IMG/VR virus record: IMGVR_UViG_3300032213_002396
Coordinates: 1 to 46,048 of that record
Source of the DNA: a virus
DNA length: 46,048 nucleotides
Direction: 5' to 3' (one strand)
Position numbers and translations under genes: made by a program. A model generated the notes under the pieces. It was not told where the DNA came from. It made no database searches and saw nothing but the letters and a program-made list of their open reading frames with translations. Below, in pieces: positions 1 to 40,649 of this stretch. How positions within the stretch are numbered: the first letter of the stretch is position 1; each line of letters opens with the position of its first letter.

Positions 1-530
1 AAAAATGTAGTAATTTGACTAGGTCTGACCCATTCTGGTGATGTTACTTTTTTACGTTGACTTAGCATTAAACTTTCTGCTTCGTGACATAAATTATTCA
101 ATTGTCTAATAGCAAATTTAGTCGTGTAGTCTGCTCGTTTATAATATTCACTTAGACCCCATACTGTTCCCTGCAAAATCTCAAAATGATTATGCAGTTT
201 ATTCATCAGATCTTGATTAGGTCTTAGCGTGTCTGGATCACGTAACGTATTATGATTATATATTTCTTTAATTTGATATTCATCGCCAAAGAAATGATTT
301 ATTTCATTTATTGCCCAAAAAAGTTCTTGGCATATAAATTTCAAATCACGCTGACTGTCTGGAAAACCCAAAAAGCAAAAATTCTTTTCTAAATATTTGT
401 TTTGTTGAACAATTTCTTTAAGAGCAGCAAACCAATGTTGAGCCATTTCATGCTCGTAAACATTGATAATATAGTCCAGAGTTTCCGTTTTATCCAACGG
501 ATTTCTTAATGTTACAATTACTTTATTCAA
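1..530 (-). CDS. Unknown protein, 3' end outside window
   Basis: The reading frame stays open from a TTG start at 530 to the left edge (about 176 residues seen) and is the last visible gene of the accessory operon. An in-frame TAG lies just upstream and no ATG fits, so TTG at 528-530 is the only reasonable start. It overlaps the stop of the preceding radical SAM gene in the 8-base arrangement TTGAATAA. The protein begins (M)NKVIVTLRNPLDKTETLDYI and is rich in charged and aromatic residues, with no signal peptide, membrane segment or cysteine cluster. I recognise no family. Its place at the end of an operon of radical SAM and glycosyltransferase genes suggests a role in the same pathway, but that is inference from position only. 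Confidence 0.6.
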   Translation of the reverse strand, partial: MNKVIVTLRNPLDKTETLDYIINVYEHEMAQHWFAALKEIVQQNKYLEKNFCFLGFPDSQRDLKFICQELFWAINEINHFFGDEYQIKEIYNHNTLRDPDTLRPNQDLMNKLHNHFEILQGTVWGLSEYYKRADYTTKFAIRQLNNLCHEAESLMLSQRKKVTSPEWVRPSQITTF

Positions 531-1815
531 TTGAATTCCACCATTCTAATACTTGTGGTCGTTGAGAAAATATATCTTTTATAGTATATGTATCACCGCG
601 AATTTGTTCTAATTGTAACACACGTTTTTTGCCTTTTGCAATAGCCGATTGATATTCTCTGGGCCATTGCTCTTGAAATGTAGGTCTGGTTTTTAGCTGG
701 ACAAGGATATCCTTTAACGGGTTATTCTCCACCAAGGAAAGTATTTCATCTACCCAGGGATCTAAAATTTCTCTGGGCAGGGCTAAAGGTGACATAACTA
801 TGTCCGGGCTAAAACTAAAAATTACTTTCGCGAGAATATCGACTTTTTCTTCTTCTGCAAGTCGCTGGATATTAATAACTTCGAACATGCCGGGCAAAGT
901 GAGCGTAAAGTCAATTCGCATTTGACGTCGGTGACTAGCAATTTTAGTTCCTTGGCGGAAGTTCTCAAGCCATTCATTGTAGTCGAGACCTGTTCTAATG
1001 TATTCTCCAATTGGGCCTGTGCCGTCGATGCTTGCACAAATCTGCCAATCACGAAGCCTGTTGAGAATATCACTATAAAGACTAATGCCTTTATAATTAA
1101 TTCTTGATAAATTAGTGTTATACCTAGCATAGACATTTGGGCCATCTCCTAACTCTATTATTCTTTTCATGTAGCGCCAATGTTGTTCGTACATTAAAGG
1201 TTCGCCACCAACCCAATATACTTCTTCAACTCGATGCTCTTCGACAGCTTGACTAAATTCTGCTTCGACTTGATTATCTTGAAATTGTTCAATTTGTTTT
1301 TTGATGTCAGGTTGCATCCAATTGTTTTTTGGATCCGACCAATTGATCATGTTGTGTTGACGTTGTTCGCTTTCCCATGAACTGCTTAACATGTCTCCAC
1401 ACATTCGACATTTAAAATTACAAAGATTACTGAATCTGTAATCCCAACTCACGGGCTTCATATCAGTCGAACCGTCAGGCTGAGTCCTTTCCATTGCCTC
1501 ATTGTACTTATGGCCAAACAATTGATCAAAATAGCTACGGTAAACAGATGTGTTCAATAACTTATCGTTGCATACTTCACACTCTGGTAGGATTTCCCCG
1601 CGCATCATACGCAGGCGCACGGACTTCATGTGCTCTCCATTCCAATGTTCATCTAGTGTGATAGGTATATACTTTCCTGTACCTGCACTAGTATCAATAT
1701 ACTGTTGAAAATTTTGTGCAGGTTCGCGACTGGCACAGCACATTCTGCGTTCAGTTTGTGGACTTAGATAGGTATGTGTCCATGGTGCAAGACAAAGAGT
1801 AATCGGCTTATTCAT
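523..1815 (-). CDS. Radical SAM protein with N-terminal twitch domain (1 of 6)
   Basis: A 430-residue protein expected to cleave S-adenosylmethionine with a [4Fe-4S] cluster and start radical chemistry on an unknown substrate. The cluster motif CNFKCRMC supplies C132, C136 and C139, and the GGEP motif at 203-206 is the usual SAM amino-group contact. An N-terminal cysteine set, C8, C26-C27 and CEVC (C79, C82), matches a twitch/SPASM-like auxiliary-cluster domain placed before the barrel rather than after it. A later YIRTGLDY segment recurs in the sister proteins. Start ATG at 1815 overlaps the upstream stop by 8 bases (ATGAATAA), so translation is probably coupled. Radical SAM assignment is firm; twitch assignment is good; reaction and substrate are unknown. 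Confidence 0.93.
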   Translation of the reverse strand: MNKPITLCLAPWTHTYLSPQTERRMCCASREPAQNFQQYIDTSAGTGKYIPITLDEHWNGEHMKSVRLRMMRGEILPECEVCNDKLLNTSVYRSYFDQLFGHKYNEAMERTQPDGSTDMKPVSWDYRFSNLCNFKCRMCGDMLSSSWESEQRQHNMINWSDPKNNWMQPDIKKQIEQFQDNQVEAEFSQAVEEHRVEEVYWVGGEPLMYEQHWRYMKRIIELGDGPNVYARYNTNLSRINYKGISLYSDILNRLRDWQICASIDGTGPIGEYIRTGLDYNEWLENFRQGTKIASHRRQMRIDFTLTLPGMFEVINIQRLAEEEKVDILAKVIFSFSPDIVMSPLALPREILDPWVDEILSLVENNPLKDILVQLKTRPTFQEQWPREYQSAIAKGKKRVLQLEQIRGDTYTIKDIFSQRPQVLEWWNSIE

Positions 1816-2557
1816 GAATTATGTTAATTAATCTATCTGCCCATTGTTCATGGCATTGAGTACTGTGATGTGATTTATCAAAAGCATTACTATCTAAGTC
1901 CCAAATTGAATTACATGAATCATTAAAATGCATTTTAATTTTATTATTAATTAGAATTTTTTGTATTTCAATTGAATATGTATCCGCTTTCTGGAAATGT
2001 ATATTATAACATGGAATGTTTAAAAGTTTGAGAATAGTATTAGCTTCAATTATTGAAGACAACCAAGATTCTAATAGATTGTGTTCAGACAATTTTATTG
2101 CATGATGAATTAAGCACTGCGACGGAGAGTTTACTAATTCAAAATGTGCAACATTTTTTTCATATACAAACATCCTATAGGGATTGGGCCATTGCGCTAC
2201 CACAAATTTTGGAGATTTTTGAATATTGTTAACCCAAGATAAAATATTCTTTTTTACAAACATTGCACCAGATGATGCTACGCCCAAATTAACCACTTGC
2301 AATCCTAGTCGACGACTTAATTGATTACTATACACAAATTCATATGGGAGGCCCACTCCTTCAGTATGACTGCACCCAATGGCTATTGCATAACTATCTG
2401 ATATAGTATCAAACTCTTCTGTTCGATAACCTTGACTATTATACACATATTCCACCGTATCTTTGGATACATGACGAATACTTGTCTTTTTATTTGCCCT
2501 AGCTAGTTTTATAACCGGTGAAGCAAAACTATCTAGTAGAGTAAATTGTTCATTCAT
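1808..2557 (-). CDS. SGNH/GDSL-like hydrolase
   Basis: A 249-residue protein with a block I-like IGCSHTEGVGL (in place of GDSL), a following NLGVASSG that fits block II, and a C-terminal DKSHHSTQCHEQWA that can supply the catalytic Asp/His pair. SGNH enzymes are esterases, lipases or sugar O-acetyl-esterases/transferases. Here the nucleophile would be the Ser of GCSH, which is inference. It sits between the second and first radical SAM genes, overlapping both by 8 bases (ATGAATGA at the start, ATGAATAA at the stop). A related protein lies at 40642-41541 on the other strand. Given the glycosyltransferases in the same operon, acylation or deacylation of a sugar is plausible but unproven. A non-catalytic member of the fold cannot be excluded. 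Confidence 0.72.
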   Translation of the reverse strand: MNEQFTLLDSFASPVIKLARANKKTSIRHVSKDTVEYVYNSQGYRTEEFDTISDSYAIAIGCSHTEGVGLPYEFVYSNQLSRRLGLQVVNLGVASSGAMFVKKNILSWVNNIQKSPKFVVAQWPNPYRMFVYEKNVAHFELVNSPSQCLIHHAIKLSEHNLLESWLSSIIEANTILKLLNIPCYNIHFQKADTYSIEIQKILINNKIKMHFNDSCNSIWDLDSNAFDKSHHSTQCHEQWADRLINIIHE

Positions 2558-3758
2558 ACCCCATGGCCTTGGCTATTTCAAAATGCGTATCCATAAAGTT
2601 CTGTTTACGATACTCATCTGTTTGTTTCATTTTTTTAAGAAATTCTGCACCGTCGCTGCCTGATCCATTTTCAATAAATTTAATCACATTGTCAATTTCT
2701 TGTTGATACCTTTCAGATACCCAAAATGTAGTTTTTAATTTATTTAATACTAATTCTTTTGCAATAGGCGTCAGTTGCTGTATGCTCATATGACTAGGAC
2801 TGTGTAACATATTAAAATATACACTATCAAAAGATTTTGTACTTGCCCACGCTAGAAGTTCATCTAAGTAATAGACATTTTGAATATTAATAGTAAAACA
2901 AAGTTGAGTAGTGATGTTGGGTGTATCTACGTTTTTAGCAAAATGTATTCCGTCTATTATTTCATTGGCATCTTCCCACTTAGCCCCATATCGTTCATAT
3001 TCGAATCTGTCACCAACATTGTCAACACTAAAAGCAATATCAACACGACCGAAGTGATTCCATAACGCAGACTTTTCTACGCCCAAAGAATTAACTGTGG
3101 CATTGGTATTGTAGTGTATATCAATATGTTTACTATCACCAGTGTCAACTGCATAACGCAACAACTTCCAGTGTTCTTCGATTAGCCATGGTTCACCACC
3201 AGTAAATTCAAAATACTTAATTTGCGGCAGTAATGTTTTTAAATTTTCCCAAAATGAAGGACTTTCTTCTGGCCATTTGCCTTGTTTTAACCAATTATAT
3301 GCTATATGTTTTTTCTTATCATAGCCCTTAGGCAAATAATCCATTTCTTCAGCAGCCCACTTGCTGCTCGACCAACTGCCACATATACGACATTTAAGAT
3401 TACAAATATTACCTAACTTTAAATCTAGGAACCATAGTTGGTCGGGCTGATCATTTTTCCAATCTACTAACGGGTATAGCTCTTTTAATCTCACTCGGCT
3501 ATTAATTCTTTTACTGTCTTTGCCGGCATCTTCCTCATCCCAACATAATTTACAAGTTGCAGGTTTTTCTCCTGCACGAAATTGTCGGCGTAAATTTTGC
3601 ATATATTCGCTTTTATATGCATCTTCTAATGTATGCGTTCTCAGATTTACGCCCGATATATCTTCCCGCGCAAGACAACAAGGGCGAGCAGTGCCTGCTG
3701 GACTAGCTTCTATACTAATCCACGGTAGCATACAAATGGTGTCTGGTAAGTTGTTCAT
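2550..3758 (-). CDS. Radical SAM protein with N-terminal twitch domain (2 of 6)
   Basis: A 402-residue paralogue of the flanking radical SAM proteins. Cluster motif CNLKCRIC gives C119, C123 and C126; GGEP is at 187-190. The N-terminal domain contains ICMLPW (C9), PCC (C27-C28) and CKLC (C69, C72), the spacing of a twitch/SPASM-like auxiliary cluster. The usual YIRxG segment is replaced by YERYG, and the C-terminus ends near YRKQNF, a weak form of the tail shared by three sisters. Start ATG at 3758 overlaps the upstream stop by four bases (ATGA), so translation is probably coupled. The next gene encodes the SGNH-like protein. Radical SAM identity is firm; the substrate is unknown. Confidence 0.93.
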   Translation of the reverse strand: MNNLPDTICMLPWISIEASPAGTARPCCLAREDISGVNLRTHTLEDAYKSEYMQNLRRQFRAGEKPATCKLCWDEEDAGKDSKRINSRVRLKELYPLVDWKNDQPDQLWFLDLKLGNICNLKCRICGSWSSSKWAAEEMDYLPKGYDKKKHIAYNWLKQGKWPEESPSFWENLKTLLPQIKYFEFTGGEPWLIEEHWKLLRYAVDTGDSKHIDIHYNTNATVNSLGVEKSALWNHFGRVDIAFSVDNVGDRFEYERYGAKWEDANEIIDGIHFAKNVDTPNITTQLCFTINIQNVYYLDELLAWASTKSFDSVYFNMLHSPSHMSIQQLTPIAKELVLNKLKTTFWVSERYQQEIDNVIKFIENGSGSDGAEFLKKMKQTDEYRKQNFMDTHFEIAKAMGYE

Positions 3759-5086
3759 TTTAAGCTGGCTAGTTCAGGAAATGTAGACCAAAAATTTTCA
3801 CCCCTAAGTTTATCTAAACTTTCAATTTCTTCTTTAAATTTTAACCAATGACGAGATTTATCGTCGGCCATTAGTAAGTTGATAACACTGCGGAATCCTG
3901 TCGTTGCCCTTTTAAGACTGTCCAGTGGTTCTAACCATTCTAAGTGTTTTTCGTATGCTGGCCTAACCACTGACTCTTTGAAATGTACAGGTAAGGTATC
4001 TATTCTATACCAGTCTGGACTTTGGCAAACGTTTACATTGAAATCTTTTGCCTTTATAAGTCCAAGATTAGTCCATTCTTTATGAAAATCAAGTACATGC
4101 AAAACATTCATGTTACTGATAGTTGCGGCTATGTAAAAATCCACATGCGGTACTTCTGCAAGCATTTTTTCTCTGTTAGCTATAGTCTGTTTCCAATTAG
4201 TTCCTTTACGCATTAATTCTGCTCGTGCTCCGCTGGCATCTAAGCTGGCTCCCACTCCCACTGTCCTAAAATGTTTCCAATACTCAAATACGTGTTTGTC
4301 TTTATATGCCAATTCGCTAAAGTTTGTATTGTATTGAATACATACATCTGTTCTACCAGCTTCAATAAGTTTTTCTAATAGAACATAATGTTCTTTCATA
4401 ATTAAAGGTTCGCCACCTGCAAAGTAAACTTGTTCAAGATAAGGAATATGTTCTTCCATTTGTGCAATCATATAATCTTCGTCTCCTGCTGCGTACTCAA
4501 TCCGAGCAAGATCTTTACCGTTAACATCTGGCACTCTGTTGAACAATTTTACATGATCATTGTACCAGTTACTACTGAATACTGGACCACAAGTACGACA
4601 GCGAAAGTTACATAAATTGCTAAAACGAACATCCCAATATCTAATTTTGAATTCTGGATGAGTGCCGTCTGCATGTGTCTTATCCACGTCAGCAATATTA
4701 TGGCCATACGTTCTATTAGCATCATAGCGCATACTAAAAAACCCATTTTCTTCTTGTTCGTAGCATTTAGTACACTGCTTGACTGGTTGATCTGCCATCA
4801 TCAATCGTCTAATTTCTTTATAGCCTTCCTGATTCCAGACCTCTTGCATCGAGTTCTTTTTTAAATTTCCGATAGGATGAAAGTATTCTGCAAAACAGCA
4901 AGGGTAGACTCTGCCATCTGGATAAGCATGTTGATGCACCCATGGCAACATGCAAAATGACTTACTATTAGTTAATCTATTAATCTGCGTTTCTGATAAT
5001 GTATCGGGATCTGTAAATAAAGGTTTCCTACTGTTATAGTCATACCCACGTTTATAAAATCTATCAGTTTTTTTGTCTTCACTCAT
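3755..5086 (-). CDS. Radical SAM protein with N-terminal twitch domain (3 of 6)
   Basis: I choose the ATG at 5086 (443 residues) because it makes a four-base ATGA overlap with the upstream stop; an ATG at 5101 would add five residues. After about 40 leader residues comes the clearest SPASM-like block of the set: FCMLPW (C45), DGRVYPCC (C63-C64), GNLKKNSMQEVW, then CTKC (C105, C108). In classical SPASM enzymes such a block follows the barrel; here it precedes it. The radical SAM motif CNFRCRTC gives C159, C163 and C166, and GGEP is at 224-227. The C-terminus LRGENFWSTFPEL belongs to a tail motif shared with the genes ending at 5083 and 7548. The substrate is unknown. Confidence 0.93.
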   Translation of the reverse strand: MSEDKKTDRFYKRGYDYNSRKPLFTDPDTLSETQINRLTNSKSFCMLPWVHQHAYPDGRVYPCCFAEYFHPIGNLKKNSMQEVWNQEGYKEIRRLMMADQPVKQCTKCYEQEENGFFSMRYDANRTYGHNIADVDKTHADGTHPEFKIRYWDVRFSNLCNFRCRTCGPVFSSNWYNDHVKLFNRVPDVNGKDLARIEYAAGDEDYMIAQMEEHIPYLEQVYFAGGEPLIMKEHYVLLEKLIEAGRTDVCIQYNTNFSELAYKDKHVFEYWKHFRTVGVGASLDASGARAELMRKGTNWKQTIANREKMLAEVPHVDFYIAATISNMNVLHVLDFHKEWTNLGLIKAKDFNVNVCQSPDWYRIDTLPVHFKESVVRPAYEKHLEWLEPLDSLKRATTGFRSVINLLMADDKSRHWLKFKEEIESLDKLRGENFWSTFPELASLK

Positions 5087-6432
5087 AATGTGTTGTACCA
5101 ATCTGCCAGGGCAGGAAATGTTTTGCGGAAGTCTTTTCCCCTGCGTTGGTCATATTGTGTATAAAATTCCTTAAAGTCATTGCGTAACTTAGGCATTTCA
5201 AAAGAATCGCTGTGTGGAGTTTTTACTACATCCAGATAGTCAATCAACCGCTGCAAATGATTTATTTCGTGCTCGTGTAGATAGTTATATCCTTTGTGCC
5301 GAATGATAAAATTAGTTAACTGATTTTTGTATTTTTCTCTGATGTCATTAGGGAGAACCAATGGACTTTGAAAACTAGGAAATCGGAGAATATTTAAAGT
5401 AAAATTAGGATAATCTCTACCAAATTCTTTTTTCAACTCGACCATGGTATCTAAAAAGTTTGGCAATGTGTCTAAACACAATGCATTAATTGTACACATT
5501 ATATGTAGGCCGCGAAACTTTTTACTGTTTGCGAGTTTCATAACATTTTCCAACCATAGATTATAATTAAGACCATCTCTTATATATTCTGCTTGATCGT
5601 ATTCACTTTCATTACTAGTGTATAAATCTATTTCTAAATCTTCTACACTATTAATTAACCTGTCAATATCAACTTGATACCCCAAATTACTGTTAATTGC
5701 TAACCGTGTTTGGCTTTTGCCTCTATTAGATTTAAACCAATCAATTAGCTTCCAAGTCTCTGCACTCATTAGAGGCTCCCCGCCTGTAATTCGTAATTCT
5801 TTTAATGTACGATGGAGGTCTGATTCCCACCATTTGTGGAATGCTTCGACATACGGATTATGTTCGCCAAATTTGTACAATTGACTATGGTCATGAGAAT
5901 GAGTAAAATGATTCCTGCCGTCACTAACCAGCCCTGTATAAGGCCCATTGCGTTTGATATCATTGACCCATGTACTACTAAAAGCAGGGTTGCAATAACT
6001 ACAAGCAAACTGACAAGTTCGATCGAAAGCAATTTCAAGAGTTTGAAGGTCGAAGTCCTCTCGTGCGGGTGTTCTATATGCATATGCTAAATCCTCGTCG
6101 TTATAAATTACAGTTTTGTATACACGATCGCTTACGGCATCCCGACCCATGTCCTCAATTTTCCAGCAATACTCGCAACCGGATGGGCGCTCATTTTTTT
6201 GCATCTGTTCGCGCTCCATCTTTTTCTTTTGTGTATTGTGCAATGCTTTTGGATTTTTTTTAATTTCATCTACATCTATTGCATGTGGTAGCGGATGATG
6301 GCAACTAGTGGTTTGTCCGCTGCCCAACCATATAGTAGCATTATACCACTTGGCTCCGCAAAAAGAATTTGATTTGATGTCTATAACTCTTTTTTTATAG
6401 TCTAGATCGGTTTCGTTTTCAATACGAGGCAT
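5083..6432 (-). CDS. Radical SAM protein, variant twitch domain (4 of 6)
   Basis: A 449-residue radical SAM protein with CQFACSYC (C140, C144, C147) and GGEP at 217-220. Its N-terminal domain keeps C25 and CEYC (C86, C89), but the expected CC pair is replaced by SCHHP, so only C44 remains, followed by two histidines. It also carries ALHNT followed by a lysine-rich stretch and NERPSGCEYCW, closely shared with the gene at 7548-8939. These two form a distinct subfamily. YIRDGLNY follows the barrel core, and the C-terminus RRGKDFRKTFPAL repeats the shared tail. Start ATG at 6432 overlaps the upstream stop by 14 bases. A histidine ligand to the auxiliary cluster is possible but is inference. Confidence 0.92.
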   Translation of the reverse strand: MPRIENETDLDYKKRVIDIKSNSFCGAKWYNATIWLGSGQTTSCHHPLPHAIDVDEIKKNPKALHNTQKKKMEREQMQKNERPSGCEYCWKIEDMGRDAVSDRVYKTVIYNDEDLAYAYRTPAREDFDLQTLEIAFDRTCQFACSYCNPAFSSTWVNDIKRNGPYTGLVSDGRNHFTHSHDHSQLYKFGEHNPYVEAFHKWWESDLHRTLKELRITGGEPLMSAETWKLIDWFKSNRGKSQTRLAINSNLGYQVDIDRLINSVEDLEIDLYTSNESEYDQAEYIRDGLNYNLWLENVMKLANSKKFRGLHIMCTINALCLDTLPNFLDTMVELKKEFGRDYPNFTLNILRFPSFQSPLVLPNDIREKYKNQLTNFIIRHKGYNYLHEHEINHLQRLIDYLDVVKTPHSDSFEMPKLRNDFKEFYTQYDQRRGKDFRKTFPALADWYNTL

Positions 6433-7564
6433 TTAAAAGTTCCTTAATTTTAATTGGAAGACTTATATTTTTTCTATGTTCCCACTGTTTTAAAAAGTGT
6501 AAAAATTCTGAAAATAAAGTTTTATTAAATTTTGTTGAAGACAATATACTCAACACGACCTCAACATTTTTTATATTTTTGTTATCTGATAGAGTTAACA
6601 ATACAGTTACTGCTTGTTTTTTAATATTATCCGGAGTTGATTCGATACTTTGTATTCTTGGATATTGGCAATAAGACAAATTCCATGATAAAGTATCTTT
6701 GTATTTTTTTATTCTGGGCAGTACTACTGTAGATGAAAAATTATCAATATCACACAGGGTTAAATTGGTCATTAAACTTAAAATATTAATTTTCACCTTC
6801 TCTCCGCTGTTTTCCAACAAATAGTCTAGATTTTTTAAAAATACCTTGTAATCGATTCCATACCTGATAAATTCTGACATTTCTTCACCGGCATCCAAAC
6901 TAACATTAATCAAAATGCATTTAAATTTTTCTTTGTAAGATAACAGTTTGTCTATTAGATTTTGATCGACCATCAAATTTGAAGTTATATTCAAAATTCC
7001 TTTATGATCTATTAGATCTAAGATATTAAAAAAATTTTTATTTACTAACGGTTCTCCGCCTATTATTCGCAAAGTTTCAAATTTTAAAGAATTTAATAAT
7101 TCTAAATTTTCAACCACTAACTGTTTATTTTTAATATCTATACTGTAGACATGTCGATCTGTAAACAATTGATATTTTTGATCTTGAATATCTTTTTCCC
7201 ACTGACTACTAAACTTTGGATTACAATACATACACTGCATATTGCAGGCATTTCCTATGTTAATTTCAATTTCAGTGGGCGGTTTGTTATTTTTGTAATC
7301 TTGAAATTTTGATATATCAAATTTTTTTAATAGTTGAGTTCTAATACTAGTTCCGTTTACTTTTTCAGAACCCCAACAATAAGAACAACTTGGATCTTGT
7401 ACGTTGTTTAACAAATTCTGTTTCTGCAGATCAATTACTTTATTATAATCGTCACTGAATTTTTCTGGCTTCGCTTTACAGCAACCATACACATAATTAT
7501 AACTAGTATTAATAACTAGTTCGTCCCATTTGGCCGGGCAAAAAGTGTCAGGTAGTTGTTGCAT
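6419..7564 (-). CDS. Radical SAM protein with N-terminal twitch domain (5 of 6)
   Basis: The shortest and most AT-rich member (381 residues, rich in Lys, Asn and Ile). Cluster motif CNMQCMYC gives C107, C111 and C114; GGEP is at 169-172. The N-terminal domain keeps the complete cysteine set: FCPAKW (C9), GCC (C28-C29) and CSYC (C60, C63). AKW and CSYCW resemble the variant subfamily (genes at 5083 and 7548), while the CC pair resembles the other three, so it looks intermediate. It has EFIRYGIDY but lacks the FPE-type C-terminal tail. Start ATG at 7564 overlaps the upstream stop by 17 bases. Its composition differs visibly from its neighbours, which hints at a different evolutionary history. 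The substrate is unknown. Confidence 0.92.
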   Translation of the reverse strand: MQQLPDTFCPAKWDELVINTSYNYVYGCCKAKPEKFSDDYNKVIDLQKQNLLNNVQDPSCSYCWGSEKVNGTSIRTQLLKKFDISKFQDYKNNKPPTEIEINIGNACNMQCMYCNPKFSSQWEKDIQDQKYQLFTDRHVYSIDIKNKQLVVENLELLNSLKFETLRIIGGEPLVNKNFFNILDLIDHKGILNITSNLMVDQNLIDKLLSYKEKFKCILINVSLDAGEEMSEFIRYGIDYKVFLKNLDYLLENSGEKVKINILSLMTNLTLCDIDNFSSTVVLPRIKKYKDTLSWNLSYCQYPRIQSIESTPDNIKKQAVTVLLTLSDNKNIKNVEVVLSILSSTKFNKTLFSEFLHFLKQWEHRKNISLPIKIKELLNASY

Positions 7565-8939
7565 AATATTTGCATTCCTTCCAAAAGTCTACCATTTCTG
7601 GAAATGCCAAAATAAAGTTAGTTCCCCTGCGTCGGTCATGTTCATTGAAAAACTTATAGAAATTTGCTTTCTGTATTTTAACATATTCAGGATCTAATTT
7701 GCTACCTTCTCTCATCCAATCGATCACTCTTTGTAAACGGTGAACTTCATAGTCTTTGAAACCGTGAAATGGAGTTTCAGGTTGTTCCATTTTTGTAATC
7801 ATAAAACTCCACGATGTTTCTAAGCTGTCTATATAACTTTCTGGTAATAGTTGTAAACTTTGCCATTCTGGTTTACGCAGAATCGGAGTATCAAACCACA
7901 CACGCTGATATGTTTTGCTGTGTATCTGCCTGAGTCCCAGTATACAACCTAATAAATTTTGAAGTCCAGTTACGTTTAAATTATTCATAGTAATTATGAA
8001 TGTCAAACTACTACGGTTCGGTACTTCATATAAAAATCGATTAACGTTATTCCACAATCTTTCAAAATTTAACCCATGTCTGATATATTCAGCTTGTAGA
8101 AAAGTAGCATCTATACTAACATACTGCATGAAATGCTCAATTTTTTTATCTTCATTGCTGCATAGTCGTTTTACATAATCCAAATACTTGTCAAACAATG
8201 CAGGCTCAACACTGAAATTAGAAGTTACGTTTAAATGTAGCTTAGGGCTAGGATTTTCTAATACATAATCAAATACTCGATATGTATTTTTATCCATGAG
8301 TGGTTCTCCCCCGGTCATTCGAAAATGTTCTAGTTCACGATATAATTTGGGCCACCAAGACCAAAAAGCATCCACATAGGGATTATCTTCTCTTGCAGGA
8401 ATAACTTTTCTTTCTCCGGTAAAATGACTGGGGTCATTATGCAGAGGGCTTGTGGGAAAAGCACCATTGCGTTCTACATCAGTGGCCCACGTACTAGAGT
8501 ACTGAGGACTACAATAACTACAAGCAAGATTACAAGCATTGTTAAAATTAACTTCCACGTAAGAGGGAAGAACATCTTCCTCCCCAGAAGAATTAACTAT
8601 TGTTTCAAAATCTTTTGCTGCCCACGGCTCACCGCTGCGATAATGCCGATCGCTTAAGTTGCCCAAATCTTCTTGAGTCCAGCAATAACTACATTCTTGT
8701 GGGCGTTCATTGCGTAACATAATCTTGCGCTGCTCTTTTTTATAAGGTGTGTTATGCAATGCACTGGGATTATCTTTTAATAACGTTGAATCAATTTTAT
8801 GTAACGGTGGATGATAACAACTGTTATTAAGGCCTGTGGGCAAATGCAGACTGACTTGTTTCCATTTAGCTAAACAAAGTGAAGGACCTAATTTAGATTT
8901 TGCTTCTTCTGCGGAATTTAAAAATACGCTTTTGGTCAT
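7548..8939 (-). CDS. Radical SAM protein, variant twitch domain (6 of 6)
   Basis: I choose the ATG at 8939 (463 residues), which forms a TGATG junction with the upstream glycosyltransferase stop; TTG at 8945 and GTG at 8942 are in-frame alternatives. Cluster motif CNLACSYC gives C136, C140 and C143; GGEP is at 210-213. The N-terminal domain has LCLAKW (C22), SCYHPP (C41, with Tyr-His in place of a second Cys) and CSYC (C83, C86). ALHNT, a Lys/Arg-rich stretch and NERPQECSYCW match the gene at 5083-6432. EYIRHGLNF and the C-terminal RRGTNFILAFPEM are also shared. It is the first radical SAM gene to be transcribed, directly after three glycosyltransferase-like genes and one small gene. Confidence 0.92.
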   Translation of the reverse strand: MTKSVFLNSAEEAKSKLGPSLCLAKWKQVSLHLPTGLNNSCYHPPLHKIDSTLLKDNPSALHNTPYKKEQRKIMLRNERPQECSYCWTQEDLGNLSDRHYRSGEPWAAKDFETIVNSSGEEDVLPSYVEVNFNNACNLACSYCSPQYSSTWATDVERNGAFPTSPLHNDPSHFTGERKVIPAREDNPYVDAFWSWWPKLYRELEHFRMTGGEPLMDKNTYRVFDYVLENPSPKLHLNVTSNFSVEPALFDKYLDYVKRLCSNEDKKIEHFMQYVSIDATFLQAEYIRHGLNFERLWNNVNRFLYEVPNRSSLTFIITMNNLNVTGLQNLLGCILGLRQIHSKTYQRVWFDTPILRKPEWQSLQLLPESYIDSLETSWSFMITKMEQPETPFHGFKDYEVHRLQRVIDWMREGSKLDPEYVKIQKANFYKFFNEHDRRRGTNFILAFPEMVDFWKECKYYATTT

Positions 8940-9865
8940 CACCAACCTTCGACTCGTCTAATGACATCCAATTCAGTCATTGTTGTTCCCATATTACGAT
9001 GCACTGCTTTATAGTGATGTTTAAAAAATGCGCTTTGATCTGCATCCATGTCAACGATAGGCAACCCTAATCGTGTACGTAATGTTTGTCCGATATTTTC
9101 ACAGGCAGATTCTTCGTCTTTACCAAAACTGTTCCAAAGATATGCAAGGTGATCAAAATCTTGTACTTGTTTATAGTCCCATTCTCTTAACATGGTCATG
9201 TAGGTGCCCAAACGAGCGCCATATATGGCCCACCGCCCATTTTCTACATCTTGCCCCACGCTCTGCCAAATACATAAATGGTCATAATTTCGAGCATGAA
9301 CTTTTTGTTCAAACTCTTGCAAGCTGGGTTTCTTACCACGATCCAAACACATTTTAACACCTTCACGAAAGCCTGCTCGCCAAGCTTGAAAAGGTGTTGC
9401 ATTGGGAAAGGTAGTACTATAGCAGTCATGCATGGGAATATACTTGGGATCAAAACAAAATTCTATTAGAGTTTCGTCTCTACCGTCTGTGGCTTCGTGT
9501 GTTCGCATATTATTAACGAACTCTTTAGTCCAACAACTTATTCCACCATTGCCATACATCAGCCCGTTAACATGATTACGAGCTTTCCACCTAAACACAC
9601 AGTCATGATTACTGTCGTCCAATTTAAGTTGAAGATTAAAAAATTCAGCGTCTGGTATATTGTCACCATCTATTAATACAAATCTTTCGGTGTCGCTGAT
9701 CGCGGCTGCTGCTTTGTGTGCAGCGTCACTGCCTTTTATTCCGTCTACACGTTTGGCCCATGGGATCAAATTTTGAATCTTAATCCAAGACTCTTCTTTT
9801 TTTGGTTCATCATAGGTCAAAAATATACAATCAAGATCTGCAATATCAATAATTTCTGTAGTCAT
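8939..9865 (-). CDS. Glycosyltransferase-like protein (GT-A type)
   Basis: A 308-residue protein with FVLIDGDNIPDAEFF, an acidic DxD-type motif that in GT-A glycosyltransferases binds the metal and nucleotide-sugar. An N-terminal hydrophobic strand (LDCIFLTYDEP) and a Lys/Gly-containing turn follow the usual Rossmann-like start. The C-terminal half is rich in Trp, His and Asp, with no membrane segment, so it is probably cytoplasmic. ATG at 9865 overlaps the preceding stop by 20 bases, and the stop joins the first radical SAM gene as TGATG. The close coupling to radical SAM genes suggests a shared pathway. The donor and acceptor are unknown; the glycosyltransferase call rests on one motif plus neighbours. 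Confidence 0.7.
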   Translation of the reverse strand: MTTEIIDIADLDCIFLTYDEPKKEESWIKIQNLIPWAKRVDGIKGSDAAHKAAAAISDTERFVLIDGDNIPDAEFFNLQLKLDDSNHDCVFRWKARNHVNGLMYGNGGISCWTKEFVNNMRTHEATDGRDETLIEFCFDPKYIPMHDCYSTTFPNATPFQAWRAGFREGVKMCLDRGKKPSLQEFEQKVHARNYDHLCIWQSVGQDVENGRWAIYGARLGTYMTMLREWDYKQVQDFDHLAYLWNSFGKDEESACENIGQTLRTRLGLPIVDMDADQSAFFKHHYKAVHRNMGTTMTELDVIRRVEGW

Positions 9866-10217
9866 AATATTCTATATTTGTGTAATTTTCTTCTTTTTCA
9901 ACTAATAAGGCAGGATTATTTTTTACTACTTTAAACCCTGTTTTGCTTTTAATCAATGCTGGTCTTATACCAAGGTCTTCTGAAAATTTAGCTACAATTT
10001 CTTTGTTAACAATAAGAAATTTATGAGATTTTTCATATACTTCTACCGGTATAACAACGCTGTTTTCTGCCATCGGAATGTCTTTGAATTCAGAACACAC
10101 AGAGACAATTTCCCCGCGGTCGTTGTAGTATGCCCTATACTCAACCGCAAAGTCTGTCGCAGGTTTGATTAAGTCTTGAAATGCTTTTAACAATTCATGA
10201 TCTATAGATTCGCTCAT
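9846..10217 (-). CDS. Small unknown protein
   Basis: A 123-residue protein beginning MSESIDHELLKAFQDLI and ending in a tyrosine-rich YYDYRNY. The body alternates hydrophobic and charged residues (VVIPVEVYEKSHKFLIVN), consistent with a compact alpha/beta domain. There is no cysteine cluster, signal peptide or membrane helix. It overlaps both neighbours by about 20 bases, so it is certainly part of the operon between two glycosyltransferase-like genes. I do not recognise the family. It might be an accessory subunit for one of the adjacent enzymes, but nothing in the sequence shows this directly. Confidence 0.75.
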   Translation of the reverse strand: MSESIDHELLKAFQDLIKPATDFAVEYRAYYNDRGEIVSVCSEFKDIPMAENSVVIPVEVYEKSHKFLIVNKEIVAKFSEDLGIRPALIKSKTGFKVVKNNPALLVEKEENYTNIEYYDYRNY

Positions 10218-11037
10218 AATACTCGATTACCTCGTCTGTAATAAACTTTTTATCATAATAATGTATCGGATGATATTGATTCAAATTATTAATTCTTATC
10301 ATACCTTCATCAAAATTATTATTAACAATATCAGTCCATAATCTATCATCTGACCAATTTTGCATATGCGATTTCATATGAACAAAATTAATAAAATCCA
10401 TGGTTGGTACTGTACAGTTTTCTATTCCATAGACTTGAGCAGTTAATGCATACAGCACATCTGTGCTAGGGCTATTTTCTCTACAATTTTTAAGAACATT
10501 ATTTTTTAAATGTTCCCAATTGGTCAGAATACTTTCTGCCAACTGAAAGAAATATTGTGCTTCCACACTATACCTAAAGTACATCAATCCGTTGTACAGA
10601 TCAGGCAATAGATTGTCGTCAAAAAATTTTCTATGCAATCTAGACGTGCCAGGCGTCTGTTTATAATTTTTACAGCCATAGCTTAAAACAATGTTCTTTA
10701 ATCTAAATGCTGGCATCCAGTGTAATATGCTTCTTGTAAACAATAAATCACTTTCTAATTTAATTGTTTCTTTAAAAGGACTTAAACGAAATACACGAAA
10801 TTCGTTGGCAAACACAGGTGCTGCACTTTGCTCTTCGGTTAATTCAATGACATAGTCAAAAACTTTTTTATGTTTTTCAGTCACTGATTTTGCAGTTTTA
10901 GAATCAACTACCACTGCGTATCCAAAAGTTGGGTGCAGAGATTTTACATTCAATGCTTGGACATATGCTAATTTAAGATAATCTACATCGTCGGTATTTT
11001 GTGCAAATGTTAAAAACCCAATACTCGACTTATTCAT
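10195..11037 (-). CDS. Glycosyltransferase-like protein
   Basis: I choose ATG at 11037 (280 residues, MNKSSIGFLTFAQNTDDVDY) because it overlaps the upstream stop as ATGAATAA, the junction used repeatedly in this operon; ATG at 11052 would add five residues. The N-terminus aligns by eye with the next upstream gene (a GFLTFAQNTDDVDY versus VLFAFNTKNVDY start), so the two are paralogues. KLESDLLF occupies the position of the DxD motif (LLIDVDYFIF) in that paralogue, with Glu-Ser-Asp instead of Asp-x-Asp. The rest is rich in His and aromatic residues, without membrane segments. A nucleotide-sugar transferase is the best guess; the altered acidic motif may change or weaken metal binding. Confidence 0.68.
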   Translation of the reverse strand: MNKSSIGFLTFAQNTDDVDYLKLAYVQALNVKSLHPTFGYAVVVDSKTAKSVTEKHKKVFDYVIELTEEQSAAPVFANEFRVFRLSPFKETIKLESDLLFTRSILHWMPAFRLKNIVLSYGCKNYKQTPGTSRLHRKFFDDNLLPDLYNGLMYFRYSVEAQYFFQLAESILTNWEHLKNNVLKNCRENSPSTDVLYALTAQVYGIENCTVPTMDFINFVHMKSHMQNWSDDRLWTDIVNNNFDEGMIRINNLNQYHPIHYYDKKFITDEVIEYYERIYRS

Positions 11038-11869
11038 GACATACCTCATCAACTAGCTGGCCGAACTCGTCTGACAGAATATAATTCTTATCCATGATGT
11101 GTAAACTTTGCCTTGATACTACATCGCAGCGATTTTCTGTACGTACAACAAAAAAATCATCTTTCTTGCAAATTTCTTTTAATCGATGTTCAATGGTCAT
11201 TAACTTCCATGGTATGCTAGTTTCGGGTACCAAACTATAACCATTTATAATAATATTAGCTATACTAAATGCAAAGTCATTTCTAAAATTGGTATCTCTG
11301 ATACCAAATAGTAGTCTATAATAATTGTAATTGCGTTGAATTCTACCGACTAAATTAAAAAAAATTTCGCTGCGTTTTGATTTTTTAAACAAAACAATTG
11401 TAGCCCACACCATTGGCAAGCTTGCCGGGCCCATATCTCCACCGTCAATCCGTTCGGGAGTTTGCATCTGATACATCAATCTAAAATCAAAATCTTGATC
11501 AAATAGTTTTAATAAATTTTGATCGAAAATGAAATAATCAACATCTATCAGCAGTGTTGTATCATATGGGCTCAATTGATACACAGAGTATCTATCGAAG
11601 TTCTTCCATTCTTGTACTTGAAAATTTAAATCGTAACGAACATTGCCTGTTTGAGCATTATATCTTATAATTTTATCGTAATTAAATTTTGGGTCAGCAT
11701 CTTCATCAGTAACCAGAGTAACCGGCAAATTTAGATATTTTTCAATTAATCGACTGGATCTGTCTGCTAGCGTTACATAGTCAACATTTTTAGTGTTAAA
11801 CGCAAATAGCACAACACCTTTAGACTTTGCGGATTCTTTTGAGTTCGTCATGTTGTTGATGCCATTCAT
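11030..11869 (-). CDS. Glycosyltransferase-like protein with DVD motif
   Basis: A 279-residue protein whose N-terminus contains GVVLFAFNTKNVDYVTLA, followed by a second strand (LPVTLVTDE) and, about 100 residues in, TTLLIDVDYFIFD. Asp-Val-Asp between hydrophobic strands is a typical GT-A metal and nucleotide-sugar site. It is paralogous to the gene at 10195-11037. Two starts are possible: ATG at 11869 (given) and ATG at 11851, six residues later; neither has an evident Shine-Dalgarno sequence, and both overlap the upstream gene. It is the first glycosyltransferase-like gene of the accessory operon. Acceptor unknown; phage DNA, tail protein or a host glycan are all possible. Confidence 0.75.
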   Translation of the reverse strand: MNGINNMTNSKESAKSKGVVLFAFNTKNVDYVTLADRSSRLIEKYLNLPVTLVTDEDADPKFNYDKIIRYNAQTGNVRYDLNFQVQEWKNFDRYSVYQLSPYDTTLLIDVDYFIFDQNLLKLFDQDFDFRLMYQMQTPERIDGGDMGPASLPMVWATIVLFKKSKRSEIFFNLVGRIQRNYNYYRLLFGIRDTNFRNDFAFSIANIIINGYSLVPETSIPWKLMTIEHRLKEICKKDDFFVVRTENRCDVVSRQSLHIMDKNYILSDEFGQLVDEVCHE

Positions 11870-12134
11870 TCATTACACTGTGATAATGTTGTTGAGCCTT
11901 TACTAAAAATGTTTGCTTGTCAATTTTAATTGGATTTTGATATACATCCTCAAGGTAAAACGTATCTTCGGGCCACGTAGCAGCAAATGCCAAAAGATCT
12001 GGTGTAATTTTAAACAAACCGTTATTATACGGCAAGTGTAACTCAGTTAAAATTCGTTCTTTGAGTATACGTTTATTGGATTGGAAGTCGGTGGCTTGCT
12101 TAACTTGAGCTGCAATTTCTTCGATTTGAGTCAT
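11820..12134 (-). CDS. Small unknown protein, first gene of accessory operon
   Basis: A 104-residue protein, MTQIEEIAAQVKQATDF at the start and ELKRIRKV at the end. It is mostly alpha-helical by composition, with Trp-Pro and Tyr/Gln-rich segments in the middle (TFYLEDVYQNPIKIDKQTF), and carries no cysteines. It follows the last tail gene after a 61-base gap that holds a long palindrome and a possible promoter. Downstream it overlaps the first glycosyltransferase gene by 32-50 bases. It could be a leftover small virion or assembly protein, or an operon-specific protein; I recognise no family. Confidence 0.7.
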   Translation of the reverse strand: MTQIEEIAAQVKQATDFQSNKRILKERILTELHLPYNNGLFKITPDLLAFAATWPEDTFYLEDVYQNPIKIDKQTFLVKAQQHYHSVMNEWHQQHDELKRIRKV

Positions 12135-12146
12135 ATGTATAAAAGA

Positions 12147-12176
12147 GTACAGGTATATAGTACTATATACCTGTAC
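12147..12176. repeat. Perfect 30-bp palindrome between tail and accessory operons
   Basis: Every base of 12147-12176 pairs with its mirror position: the left arm is GTACAGGTATATAGT and the right arm its exact reverse complement. As RNA it would fold into a strong hairpin, and on the minus strand it is followed by TCTTTT, so it can act as a terminator for the tail-fibre transcript. It also covers the possible -10 box of the promoter at 12157-12186, so it could instead be an operator for a dimeric repressor. Both roles fit the position. Confidence 0.85.
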
Positions 12177-12186
12177 TGTTTGTCAA
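12157..12186 (-). promoter_or_regulatory. Possible sigma70-type promoter of accessory operon
   Basis: On the minus strand TTGACA (12186-12181, exact -35 consensus) is followed after 18 bases by TACTAT (12162-12157, 4/6 to TATAAT). The start codon of the first accessory gene lies 22 bases beyond the -10 box. The same geometry (TTGACA, 18 bases, TAGTAT) precedes the gp55 gene on the other strand. No ATAAATA-type late box is visible here, so the accessory operon may be expressed early. This is inference from two short boxes. Confidence 0.45.
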
Positions 12187-12195: not shown

Positions 12196-13125
12196 TTATA
12201 CCATACTGACTGTTACGGCGCCCCACGTATTTGCTAAATTGGTAGTTGATGGGAATCGAACTACTGGCGCTAACCCCACTGTGCAACTTAATGTGTCACC
12301 TGCAGCAGTGCTACCTGTAGTCGAGCTAAAAAGAGTTGAAGTAATAGTAACTATAGCTCCGTTATCCTGATTGCTGCCAGTGGTACCGTTAGTTCTCATG
12401 GCCATTTCTGCATAATCACCGGTGTAATATGCTGTTGCTGTTGCTCTATTGTATACTTGATTACTTGTAGTAGCTTGATAATAGCCCCGCGTCGTGTTGT
12501 TTGTTGTTGCTGTGACGTTTGTGCTTAGACCGCTACTTGCAACTGCTGTAATTGTACCAAATGTAGTTCCAGTCACAATATTACCTATACTTTGGCTTCT
12601 GCGAGTTCCATTTACATTAGTATAAGTCTGGTCCTGCACAGCAACATATCCGCCGGCGTTAAAAAAGTATCTTGCTTGGTCTGCACTGGCAAAAGTAAAT
12701 GTGGCAGTCCAAGTCTGCGTATTAGATTGATTGCCATTGGCAATCATGCTTTTAGTTAATGTGGAAAAAGTTGATACAGATCCAAACGATGCTGCTGACA
12801 ATGCATTGGTATAAGCTGTACTAACTGCAGATGTCAATGTTGTTAAAAACGAAATAGTAGTGCCTGATGTGGGTGCGCTAATACCAGATCCAGATCCGCT
12901 TTGGTGTGTTCTTGCACTATTTAATGTATTAACTAAACTAGCCCAATTGGTGGCAGCAACAGTACCTGACACTGATACATTAGATACAGCAGTTTGGCCA
13001 TATCCTCGAGTTTGTCTTCCAATGCCCCATACCGTATTAAGTTGTGTGCTTACATTGGCAGCACTGCCGCCTACAATGTTATTAAAATCAGCAGCTTCAA
13101 TTAATCCACCCGATGCGTATGTCAT
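12196..13125 (-). CDS. Tail-fibre or structural protein, Ser/Thr/Ala-rich
   Basis: A 309-residue protein with the low-complexity Ser/Thr/Asn/Gly/Ala composition typical of phage fibre and decoration proteins. It begins MTYASGGLIEAADFNNIVGG and contains a better ordered segment, ADQARYFFNAGGYVA, of the kind found in phage structural proteins that pack as beta-sheets. The C-terminus (LAPVVRFPSTTNLANTWGAV) is hydrophobic. It is the last gene of the tail cluster before the palindrome, 12 bases after the tail-fibre gene at 13138-14790. It probably forms part of the distal tail or a receptor-binding fibre; no enzymatic motif is visible. Confidence 0.75.
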   Translation of the reverse strand: MTYASGGLIEAADFNNIVGGSAANVSTQLNTVWGIGRQTRGYGQTAVSNVSVSGTVAATNWASLVNTLNSARTHQSGSGSGISAPTSGTTISFLTTLTSAVSTAYTNALSAASFGSVSTFSTLTKSMIANGNQSNTQTWTATFTFASADQARYFFNAGGYVAVQDQTYTNVNGTRRSQSIGNIVTGTTFGTITAVASSGLSTNVTATTNNTTRGYYQATTSNQVYNRATATAYYTGDYAEMAMRTNGTTGSNQDNGAIVTITSTLFSSTTGSTAAGDTLSCTVGLAPVVRFPSTTNLANTWGAVTVSMV

Positions 13126-13137: not shown

Positions 13138-14790
13138 TTAACTATTTAATTTTACAATGGCCATTACTGTGCCTTCACCAGGCTCCAGTTTATTTTCTAA
13201 AGCTCGACCAATTACATTAAACGGTGTAACTTCAGCCTTGCTTGCAGCACGAGCCATACCGTTACCTGCACTTACCAGTCTGTCACCTTTTTTAATTTTT
13301 CCAACAACACGCACAGGAACACGACCGCTAACTGCAATCGGAGGATGTGTTTCATTCGACCCAGCCTGACTATTCATTAAATATGCTGCTCGCGTACTCA
13401 CTACCCCAAATACATCGTCACTTAATTCTTCGTCAGCCAATGTAACTTCTTTTTCTCCGCCCATGGTCAACACCGTACCAGGCTGGTAATATGCGTCTGC
13501 TTCAAATCGTTCTGCTAAGTCAGCGTATAGCGCATTAATCGCAGTACCGTTAAAGTATGCACCATTAATATTTCCTTGTGCAAATATTGATCCAGTTAAA
13601 CTCATTCCGCCCGACACTCGAACAGCGCCCGATACGTTACTGGTAGCATTTTCTCCGCCAGTTACTAATAAGTAAGCAGCCGTTGATACATTTCCAGTAG
13701 CTTGTACTCGACCACTAGCAACTACATTTCCAGAAGTTATAACGCTGTTTGATGTAAATAAGTTTCCAGTTAAACCAATGCCGCCAGTAACTCTGACTGC
13801 TCCTGTCACATTGCTGGTAGCATTGTCGCCCTGTGTAGTTTGAATATAACCCGATGTAACAAACGCACCGGTTGTGCTTAAATTTGCGATATTAGTTACA
13901 CCAGTCTGGCCATTTACTGTTAACACTGGAGAAAGAGTGCCCAATACGTTGGCCACAATTTGTAAATTTCCGCCATTCGTATTGTTTATAAGCTGAGTTG
14001 TGTTGCCCGTTATAGAAACTGTAAAATTATTTCCTGAACCAACAGTTAGACCGCTGTTATTGTTTATATTAATTGTGTTGGCAAAAGTGGTAGCGATATC
14101 TGTTCTAGCATAACTACTAGCAGGTTGGCTACCTAAATTATTAGCGTTAGTTGCATTTCCTACGAAGGCAATGTTTCCAACTACAGAAGAAGATGCTAAA
14201 TTAAATCCTGGTTTAATAGTGGTAAATCCAGTTGGACTGTCTGCTGGAGTATATTCTTGATCTCTGCTAATAATACCTATTAACGTTGTTCCAACAAACA
14301 CGTTAACTGCAACGTGATCTGCTACTAGCGGATTACTATCTGCAATTTGGCCTACGCTAACACCAGACTGTCCAACATTACTAGTAAAAGCAGGTCCAAT
14401 TAAAACCCAACTCGCACCATTGTAAATATTTAATTGTTGGGCAGTTGTATCCCACCATGCATTTCCTGTCTTAGATCCAGTAGGCTGTGTATTACTGGAA
14501 GTCATTGTTCCCATTGTACGCCAAGTAGATCCCGTATAAACTTTTAAGTTTCCAGCAAGATCCCACCATAACTGACCTGTTAACGGATTAGGAATAGCAG
14601 AACTATCGCCTCCGCTGGTAGACAAACTGGCAAAATTTTCCAGCATGTGTACTAAGTCCGAGTTCAAAAATGTTCCGTAACCTGCATAGTTTTTACCTAT
14701 TAGGGCTAAACTGGTACTGGTTTGATTAACAGTACCATCTTGAATTGTAGTTAAAAGTGTACCGTTACTTAAAGTTATTGTATAGGCCAT
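13138..14790 (-). CDS. Tail fibre protein with C-terminal chaperone/peptidase-like domain
   Basis: A 550-residue protein. Residues 1-150 carry two WWD motifs (GQLWWDLAGNLKVYTG and GNAWWDTTAQQLNIYNG), a repeat common in marine phage fibres. The middle is low-complexity with two copies of a GAVRVxGGxxLTG module near residues 320-350 and 375-405. From about 420 a domain starts YADLAERFEADAYYQPGTVL and ends AIVKLNS; it resembles the C-terminal domains of phage fibres that act as intramolecular chaperones or self-cleaving peptidases (Peptidase_G2-like), an assignment I hold loosely. A perfect TATAAATA late promoter lies 21 bases upstream. It is probably a receptor-binding fibre expressed late. Confidence 0.8.
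   Translation of the reverse strand: MAYTITLSNGTLLTTIQDGTVNQTSTSLALIGKNYAGYGTFLNSDLVHMLENFASLSTSGGDSSAIPNPLTGQLWWDLAGNLKVYTGSTWRTMGTMTSSNTQPTGSKTGNAWWDTTAQQLNIYNGASWVLIGPAFTSNVGQSGVSVGQIADSNPLVADHVAVNVFVGTTLIGIISRDQEYTPADSPTGFTTIKPGFNLASSSVVGNIAFVGNATNANNLGSQPASSYARTDIATTFANTININNNSGLTVGSGNNFTVSITGNTTQLINNTNGGNLQIVANVLGTLSPVLTVNGQTGVTNIANLSTTGAFVTSGYIQTTQGDNATSNVTGAVRVTGGIGLTGNLFTSNSVITSGNVVASGRVQATGNVSTAAYLLVTGGENATSNVSGAVRVSGGMSLTGSIFAQGNINGAYFNGTAINALYADLAERFEADAYYQPGTVLTMGGEKEVTLADEELSDDVFGVVSTRAAYLMNSQAGSNETHPPIAVSGRVPVRVVGKIKKGDRLVSAGNGMARAASKAEVTPFNVIGRALENKLEPGEGTVMAIVKLNS
13600..13840 (-). repeat. Duplicated fibre module inside tail fibre gene
   Basis: Two copies of a protein repeat lie at about 13783-13830 and 13607-13660: GDNATSNVTGAVRVTGG and GENATSNVSGAVRVSGG. 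The copies are similar at DNA level but not identical, so the duplication is old or has been diversified. Such repeats may lengthen the fibre shaft. Confidence 0.75.
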
Positions 14791-14811: not shown

Positions 14812-14819
14812 TATTTATA
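14812..14819 (-). promoter_or_regulatory. T4-type late promoter (exact TATAAATA)
   Basis: The minus strand reads TATAAATA, an exact match to the T4 late promoter consensus recognised by RNA polymerase with gp55. It lies in the 40-base gap between two tail genes, 21 bases before the tail-fibre start at 14790. The window also encodes a gp55 homologue. Confidence 0.7.
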
Positions 14820-39767: not shown

Positions 39768-40649
39768 ATGAAATCAAATTACTTAAATAATAAAGATATT
39801 CTTAAAGAGATACACAAAAGCAAAAATTCTTATTGCTCATTTAGTGACCCAGAAGTTGCAGACTATGATATGATTCTGCCAGACGTTAAAAAAATTAACA
39901 AAAAAAATATTTTAGATGCTCGAAAATTAAGAGCAGAAAGATTGAGTAAATTAGCGCACGAAGCTGCTGTAGCGGCAACTGGGGAGAAACAAAAAGCAGA
40001 TCAATTTGAAATCAAATATACCAAAATTCCCCAAACTGATGTAGTCTTCCGAATTATGACATGGGAGCATATACCATTAGACGACGTTAAAACTAAAAAA
40101 GCCAAGGACGCAGCCAAAGAGTTGTTTGATGATGAGGATGAAACTTCCCATACCGAATACGACGAAGACGACCCTAAACACAACAAATACGTTAAAGTCA
40201 ATTTCCCGCCGTTTTTTCATTACAAAGTAGATGAAGAAGGTAACCCCATTCTAGTAGGCAAAAGTCATTGGTCGGGCGGAATAGAATCTGGCGCTTTTAG
40301 CAGAGAACATGGTGCAATGACCAATAAGCTAGCTCACATGTTTATGAAATTATGCGAACGTTACGCAACTAGAAGCAATTGGAGAGGGTACACTTATAAC
40401 GATGAAATGCGTAGTCAAGCTTTATTGCAACTCAGTCAAATTGGGTTACAGTTCGACGAATCGAAAAGTCAAAATCCTTTTGCATATTATACCGCTGCCA
40501 TTACCAATAGTTTTACTCGTGTATTAAACATCGAAAAACGTAATCAAAACTTACGCGACGATATTCTAGAATTAAATAATTTAAATCCAAGCTACACCAG
40601 ACAAGGAATGAGTTCTGGTGGTGGAGGCTCTAACTTTTACGATGAGTAA
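39768..40649 (+). CDS. 55: Late-transcription sigma factor gp55
   Basis: A 293-residue protein with the gp55 core near residues 200-270: NWRGYTYNDEMRSQALLQLS, then FDESKSQNPFAYYTAAITNS and FTRVLNIEKRNQNLRDDIL. This is the sigma region 2-like part that recognises the -10 type TATAAATA promoter in T4-like phages. The N-terminus is much longer than in T4 gp55 (about 185 residues total), with an acidic stretch (FDDEDETSHTEYDEDDP) near 120-140 and PPFFHYKVDEEGNP before the core, as seen in marine relatives. It ends in a Gly/Ser-rich tail. Start ATG at 39768 has AAGGA at ideal distance. It would switch on the leftward tail operons. Confidence 0.93.
   Translation: MKSNYLNNKDILKEIHKSKNSYCSFSDPEVADYDMILPDVKKINKKNILDARKLRAERLSKLAHEAAVAATGEKQKADQFEIKYTKIPQTDVVFRIMTWEHIPLDDVKTKKAKDAAKELFDDEDETSHTEYDEDDPKHNKYVKVNFPPFFHYKVDEEGNPILVGKSHWSGGIESGAFSREHGAMTNKLAHMFMKLCERYATRSNWRGYTYNDEMRSQALLQLSQIGLQFDESKSQNPFAYYTAAITNSFTRVLNIEKRNQNLRDDILELNNLNPSYTRQGMSSGGGGSNFYDE

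Follow-up and report, generated by a model that had tools for sequence, protein, structure and literature searches.

Radical S-adenosylmethionine (SAM) genes recur in aquatic viromes as unexplained "auxiliary metabolic genes", and their multiplicity in T4-like environmental phages is already known. The T4-like genome TARA_ERS488813_N000010 carries 12 of them (PMC5332604), which were read as clients of phage Fe-S assembly genes, with no gene-order or pathway analysis. The host-recognition cluster of pelagimyophages also carries radical SAM gene cassettes, for which neither a function nor a conserved order was given (PMC7029224), and in Tasman Sea phages radical SAM genes are enriched together with glycosyltransferase (GT) and RmlD genes (PMC7150976). 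Here we analysed a stretch of 46,048 nucleotides (the window), which is the whole of IMG/VR virus record IMGVR_UViG_3300032213_002396, where six radical SAM genes, called RS1 to RS6, lie in one operon of overlapping genes. The first-pass annotation of this DNA had regarded such a set as not described for phages. This holds for the ordered cassette, its partners and its bacterial counterpart, which were found in no paper by a search that reached few subscription journals or preprints, but not for the multiplicity of radical SAM genes, which was published in the two studies cited first; the conserved cassette and the bacterial counterpart thus appear new in the literature searched.

The conserved unit consists of the five core genes RS6-RS4-RS3-RS2-RS1, with RS5 as an optional member. 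With RS3 as query, 41 loci were retrieved from IMG/VR, in which best match and identity indicate a single copy of each core gene. Wherever the five core genes are all present (34 loci), they stand in the order RS6-(RS5)-RS4-RS3-RS2-RS1, and the remaining seven loci run off the contig. RS5 is present in 9 of the 41, so that the conserved order, which for all six genes had been named beforehand as support for a pathway, applies to the core only. The genes interspersed between the core radical SAM genes vary (other radical SAM genes, SGNH, GT-like genes, hydroxylases), from which it follows that the region is plastic and that the core order is nonetheless kept. Since this sample had been selected by a radical SAM gene, the survey was repeated with g6, a neighbour of another kind. 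Among the best 80 of at least 545 viral relatives of g6, to which the strict order refers, 56 loci showed the full core order, RS2 was absent in 4, and most of the others were cut by a contig end. IMG/VR contigs are fragments and the two samples overlap partly (for example, loci L127 and L018 come from the same contig); with few exceptions, contigs of sufficient length for a judgement keep the core order, including those retrieved with g6. Random accumulation of radical SAM copies is ruled out by the conserved order in the independently retrieved sets.

Two further queries led to additional groups of phages. In a marine clade (L289 on) the order is g11-g1-g1-g9-g3-RS6-RS4-RS3-RS1-RS2-g2-g7, where RS1 and RS2 are swapped, and in a third clade (L209-L288) the head g11-g1-g1-g9-g3 and an RS6-like gene after it are preserved, followed by different RS3-like radical SAM genes, or the set has one radical SAM gene only. 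These layouts imply that the head and the RS6-type gene are the most widely kept part and that the downstream radical SAM set is modular. Each of twelve large records (157-374 kb) contains 9-16 matches to the N_Twi_rSAM family described below, and in this they resemble TARA_ERS488813_N000010. A large part of virome radical SAM genes need not be scattered hitch-hikers, as five distinct types form an ordered overlapping operon that is kept over deep divergence. A search of plasmids gave no match. In the Phages collection RS4, g1b, g3 and g6 were not found, and RS3 gave weak matches only, to Vibrio phages K566/K567 and to one marine fragment. The cultured phage K566 (OZ196521; L048:17989-23478) has a cluster of three annotated radical SAM genes and two hypothetical genes, with an annotated PagP homologue 5 kb away.

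The six genes are complete open reading frames (ORFs) on the minus strand, at 523-8945 of the window, as called by longest ORF (Table 1). For all six proteins the best family match by far, over nearly the full length, is the NCBIfam model NF033640 (N_Twi_rSAM), whose curated cut-off of 170 bits is exceeded in every case (192-401 bits), and they therefore qualify as members. The model is defined by sequence alone and gives no function, and the ordered five-gene set with its GT-like genes lies outside its definition. Each protein has one CxxxCxxC and one GGEP motif, and the four N-terminal auxiliary-cluster cysteines, C-x(17-18)-C ... CxxC, stand before CxxxCxxC and align across all six. The seven cysteines are intact in 699 of 706 distinct orthologues and GGE in all 706; RS1-RS6 are accordingly intact members of the radical SAM family, for which [4Fe-4S] binding and SAM cleavage are predicted. 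Pairwise identity among the six is 19-33%, hence they are not recent duplicates, and each type forms one clade across phages in a maximum-likelihood tree of 105 rows (support 98, 97, 92, 95, 99 and 99 for RS1 to RS6), which was a quick build with some long branches. Neither of the two findings that the first-pass annotation had named as fatal to its proposal was thus obtained: identical duplication is ruled out by the low identity together with the monophyly of each copy, and decay by the intact cysteines. Its description of the locus was otherwise correct with regard to the twitch family, the motifs, the divergence of the copies and the overlap of their genes (4-19 nt, the interrupting ORF included). 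The single SGNH-like interruption is also there, although the SGNH assignment is weak and the gene content of this slot differs from locus to locus. The phage origin agrees with the virus record and with T4-type baseplate, tail and recombination genes.

Table 1. Features of the radical SAM operon and its flanks, in the direction of transcription (positions in the window)
Feature	Positions	Strand	Basis and remarks
T4-type late-promoter-like TATAAATA	14812-14819	-	21 nt upstream of g8; sole copy in the window
g8, tail-fibre-like structural protein (flanking)	13138-14790	-	sequence and position
g10, tail-fibre-like structural protein (flanking)	12196-13125	-	sequence and position
Terminator-like hairpin between g10 and g11	12146-12177	-	stem of 14 bp with a T-rich tail
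g11, small conserved protein with which the overlapping operon begins	11820-12134	-	position in loci
g1a, paralogue of g1b, invariant DxD	11030-11869	-	alignment; clusters with g1b
g1b, GT8-like, ExD motif	10195-11052	-	profile match to glycogenin, E 4e-4
g9, small conserved protein	9846-10217	-	between g1 and g3 in clades A-C; mean column identity 42%
g3, GT2-like, invariant DGDN, directly before RS6	8939-9865	-	mean column identity 74%; weak GT2 matches; weak GT-A fold matches
RS6, N_Twi_rSAM, core, first radical SAM gene of the operon	7548-8945	-	NF033640 317 bits; clade support 99; in phage clades A, B and partly C
RS5, N_Twi_rSAM, optional, slot between RS6 and RS4	6419-7564	-	NF033640 192 bits; 9/41 loci
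RS4, N_Twi_rSAM, core	5083-6432	-	NF033640 294 bits; clade support 95
RS3, N_Twi_rSAM, core, TTG start as listed	3755-5101	-	NF033640 401 bits; mean column identity 71% (24 orthologues)
RS2, N_Twi_rSAM, core	2550-3758	-	NF033640 339 bits; clade support 97
SGNH/GDSL-like protein (accessory family g2), RS2-RS1 slot	1808-2557	-	Lipase_GDSL_3 E 6e-5, under gathering score
RS1, N_Twi_rSAM, core, last radical SAM gene	523-1815	-	NF033640 299 bits; clade support 98
g6, conserved protein, N-terminal part (runs off the window), adjoins RS1	3-530	-	full-length relatives about 360 aa; AlphaFold2 (AF2) pLDDT 89

The operon runs beyond the stretch 523-8939 that had first been marked out. It is placed after the tail-fibre genes and consists of g11, two GT8-like genes, g9, the GT2-like g3, the radical SAM genes and g6; from g11 to g6 the overlap of the genes is consistent, with median gaps of -4 to -23 nt, and the only consistent gap is the one between g10 and g11 (median 56 nt). 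On one side the unit thus continues into GT-like genes and on the other into g6 and a carbamoyltransferase gene, and the multi-step pathway proposed at first fits the conserved order, provided that five core genes are taken as its radical SAM part and that its limits are extended on both sides. The families g2, g4, g8, g10 and g11 are named by similarity or appearance. For g3, Pfam gave weak GT2 matches in 7 of 20 members, and its structure model, of medium confidence (pLDDT 76), has GT-A proteins among the top matches, none of them significant. No match to g1a was found in the profile library, and no useful sequence relatives of RS3, g3, g6 or g1a were found in the PDB. The model of g6 is confident; its fold had no match in the PDB, and those in BFVD were phage proteins only. 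Downstream follow genes for a NodU-type carbamoyltransferase (g7), SGNH, a DegT aminotransferase (g30) and an epimerase (g53): of 59 longer clade A loci, all have the carbamoyltransferase, 50 have SGNH, 43 the DegT/DnrJ/EryC1 aminotransferase and 33 the NAD epimerase. A gene of amidinotransferase-like sequence appearance, with no Pfam match, stands near the cassette in several loci (e.g. L036:4956-5933 and L197:14065-15084).

Counterparts of the cassette exist in bacteria. One Bacteriovoracaceae genome (L056), whose contig also carries Obg and Lgt by sequence, has within about 10 kb radical SAM genes that group with RS6, RS4 (twice), RS3, RS2 and RS1, which implies that the five types either predate this phage group or have been exchanged between phages and Bacteriovoracaceae. 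The N_Twi_rSAM family was found in 39 of 77 sampled Bacteriovoracales genomes, in up to 12 copies, and in several of them these genes adjoin GT2 genes and g3 homologues (31-39% identical, one of them with an hhalign E of 4e-55); the pairing of radical SAM genes with g3 is therefore independent of tail fibres. In three Bacteroidota surface-polysaccharide clusters (L064, L082, L084), an RS3-like radical SAM gene and a NodU-type carbamoyltransferase gene occur together with GT2s, an NAD epimerase and a UDP-sugar dehydrogenase, and L064 has ABC-type export genes as well. These resemble the phage neighbourhood in their sugar genes, but they mostly hold a single RS3-like radical SAM gene instead of five, and they are without g1, g9 and g6.

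The presence of a conserved cassette in many uncultured giant-type phages, with relatives of the set in predatory bacteria, points to a real multi-step pathway, the product of which is most likely an unusual surface sugar. We consider it somewhat probable that the cassette is a modular assembly line which builds and radically tailors a glycan of the host surface or of the virion. This explanation is favoured because the GT likeness of g1b and g3, the sugar genes g7, g30 and g53, and the carbamoyltransferase clusters of Bacteroidota are to be taken together, GT-like and nucleotide-sugar genes being found in or near the cassette. The consistent overlap from g11 to g6, the pairing with g3 and GT2 genes in Bacteriovoracales and the clustered orthologues of the five core genes in L056 also speak for it. 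The GT-like g1a, g1b and g3 would assemble or supply a glycan or nucleotide-sugar substrate; the five obligatory and the optional twitch enzymes would then act as a relay of successive radical steps, possibly epimerisation, dehydrogenation, deoxygenation or C-C bond formation; and the SGNH, carbamoyltransferase, DegT aminotransferase and epimerase products may add further decorations. The product would most probably be destined for a host surface glycan, with receptor masking or exclusion of rivals as the effect, or for the virion's own tail fibres. With its GTs and its place behind the tail fibres, the cassette corresponds to the host-recognition cluster of pelagimyophages, whose GTs have been suggested to change the O-chain of the host (PMC7029224). 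Both are T4-like phages with radical SAM cassettes in the tail-fibre neighbourhood, but the pelagimyophage cassettes figure only as an insertion when two genomes are compared, and neither g3, g6 and g9 nor a bacterial counterpart was described there. A search for literature linking radical SAM enzymes with phage glycans or with carbamoyltransferase found nothing useful. Several observations weigh against glycan tailoring: g1a and g3 are only weakly assigned as GTs; the Pfam tally of bacterial neighbours shows only modest counts of GT, SGNH and carbamoyltransferase, hence a weak association; the Bacteriovoracales clusters L056 and L118 have no obvious glycan locus; and many bacterial relatives of the radical SAM genes stand alone. 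That the substrate is a glycan, like the chemistry, the order of the steps and the destination of the product, is what we infer. A more ambitious proposal, rather unlikely as a whole, is that a conserved line of at least five twitch enzymes in series, common to uncultured jumbo-type phages and predatory Bacteriovoracales, makes a novel modified sugar polymer or glycoprotein that controls adsorption or rival exclusion.

The placement of the cassette directly after tail-fibre genes, with the small conserved g9 inside the operon, would also suit a set of enzymes resembling those of ribosomally synthesized and post-translationally modified peptides (RiPPs) and modifying a phage protein, be it a tail fibre, g9 or another virion protein. 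This explanation, which we regard as unlikely, draws also on the cultured jumbo phage Atu_ph07. There, in gp165-gp172, several radical SAM genes and a g6-like fold follow a giant virion protein and tail genes, as in our loci, and the position holds three radical SAM genes, the g6-like protein and a virion-like protein ending in CHSSCHASCHNSRSRR. The latter is gp170 (L208:37119-38009), which lies between radical SAM genes and whose C-terminus of Cys-His-Ser repeats looks like the substrate tail of a radical SAM enzyme. This different radical SAM set beside a RiPP-like-tailed protein suggests protein modification in place of glycan tailoring. The g6-like fold was recognized by Foldseek (E 1e-7) and taken as gp166 from its length of 300 aa; since no match to g6 was found in Atu_ph07 by sequence, the link rests on structure and length. 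The Atu_ph07 radical SAM proteins, however, fall below the N_Twi_rSAM cut-off, no GT-like partner was recognized beside them, and the Cys-His-Ser-tailed protein is a feature of that cluster: in clade A loci no Cys-rich C-terminal tail is found near the cassette. Moreover, the overlapping RS genes leave no space for a precursor between them (a peptide of another type, such as g9, may still serve as one), no PqqD/RRE recognition domain was found among those phage neighbours that were scanned with Pfam and NCBIfam (part of them), and the bacterial clusters with g3 have no tail fibres. Which sugar or protein is modified by five successive radical enzymes, and whether this modification decides phage binding, is the question raised; the counterpart in Bacteriovoracales and the distant analogue in this Agrobacterium C58 phage make the substrate testable.

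The cassette could also serve a pathway for a modified nucleoside or a small molecule (a cofactor, a signalling or anti-defence molecule, DNA hypermodification). Small-molecule pathways are characteristically encoded by clusters in which several radical SAM genes accompany aminotransferase, amidinotransferase-like and kinase genes, and homologues of dCMP deaminase and thymidylate synthase are found nearby (g55, named by sequence). Such nucleotide genes are nevertheless common T4-type neighbours located outside the overlapping operon, and no DNA-modification family was recognized, so that we judge a pathway of this kind quite improbable. Very improbable indeed is the viromics reading as auxiliary metabolic genes for haem or Fe-S metabolism, since, despite weak similarity to NirJ/AhbD-type SPASM proteins and a report of 261 viral "ahbD" genes (PMC9301287), many of which we infer to be N_Twi_rSAM-type proteins, the RS proteins score far under every haem-family cut-off (13-29 bits with NirJ models, against cut-offs of 500 and more, on which an AhbD identity was rejected) and far above that of N_Twi_rSAM, their auxiliary domain lies at the N-terminus, and the surveyed loci showed no neighbours from haem pathways.

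Concerning transcription signals, hairpins like the one between g10 and g11 were found by a strict scan in 8 of 39 distinct g10-g11 intergenic sequences. The motif TATAAATA occurs once in the window, against 8.6 copies expected by chance, and at 0.18 per 10 kb in related loci, which suggests that the copy before g8 is a T4-type late promoter and that the motif is avoided elsewhere; across loci, the exact T4 late-promoter motif was not consistently found at the radical SAM operon. The octamer TAAATATA is present upstream of g4, g8 and g10, within 150 nt of the start codon, with unusual frequency, in 57 of 159 cases in clade A and in 37 of 46 in clade B, and is a possible second promoter motif.

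Elsewhere the window carries T4-type genes, with gp6, gp25, gp5-like and gp46/47 named from sequence, and the nearest cultured relatives by gp6 include the jumbo phages Phosso, SCTP-2, Atu_ph07 and Munch (about 35%). Between gp6 and the tail fibres lies a single ORF for a virion protein of 4673 aa (15627-29648), and the corresponding place in Atu_ph07 is taken by a virion protein gene of 13 kb. A second SGNH-like ORF is found on the plus strand amid replication and recombination genes (40618-41541), and a small ORF that is GIY-YIG-like by sequence appearance (45313-45747) adjoins gp46.

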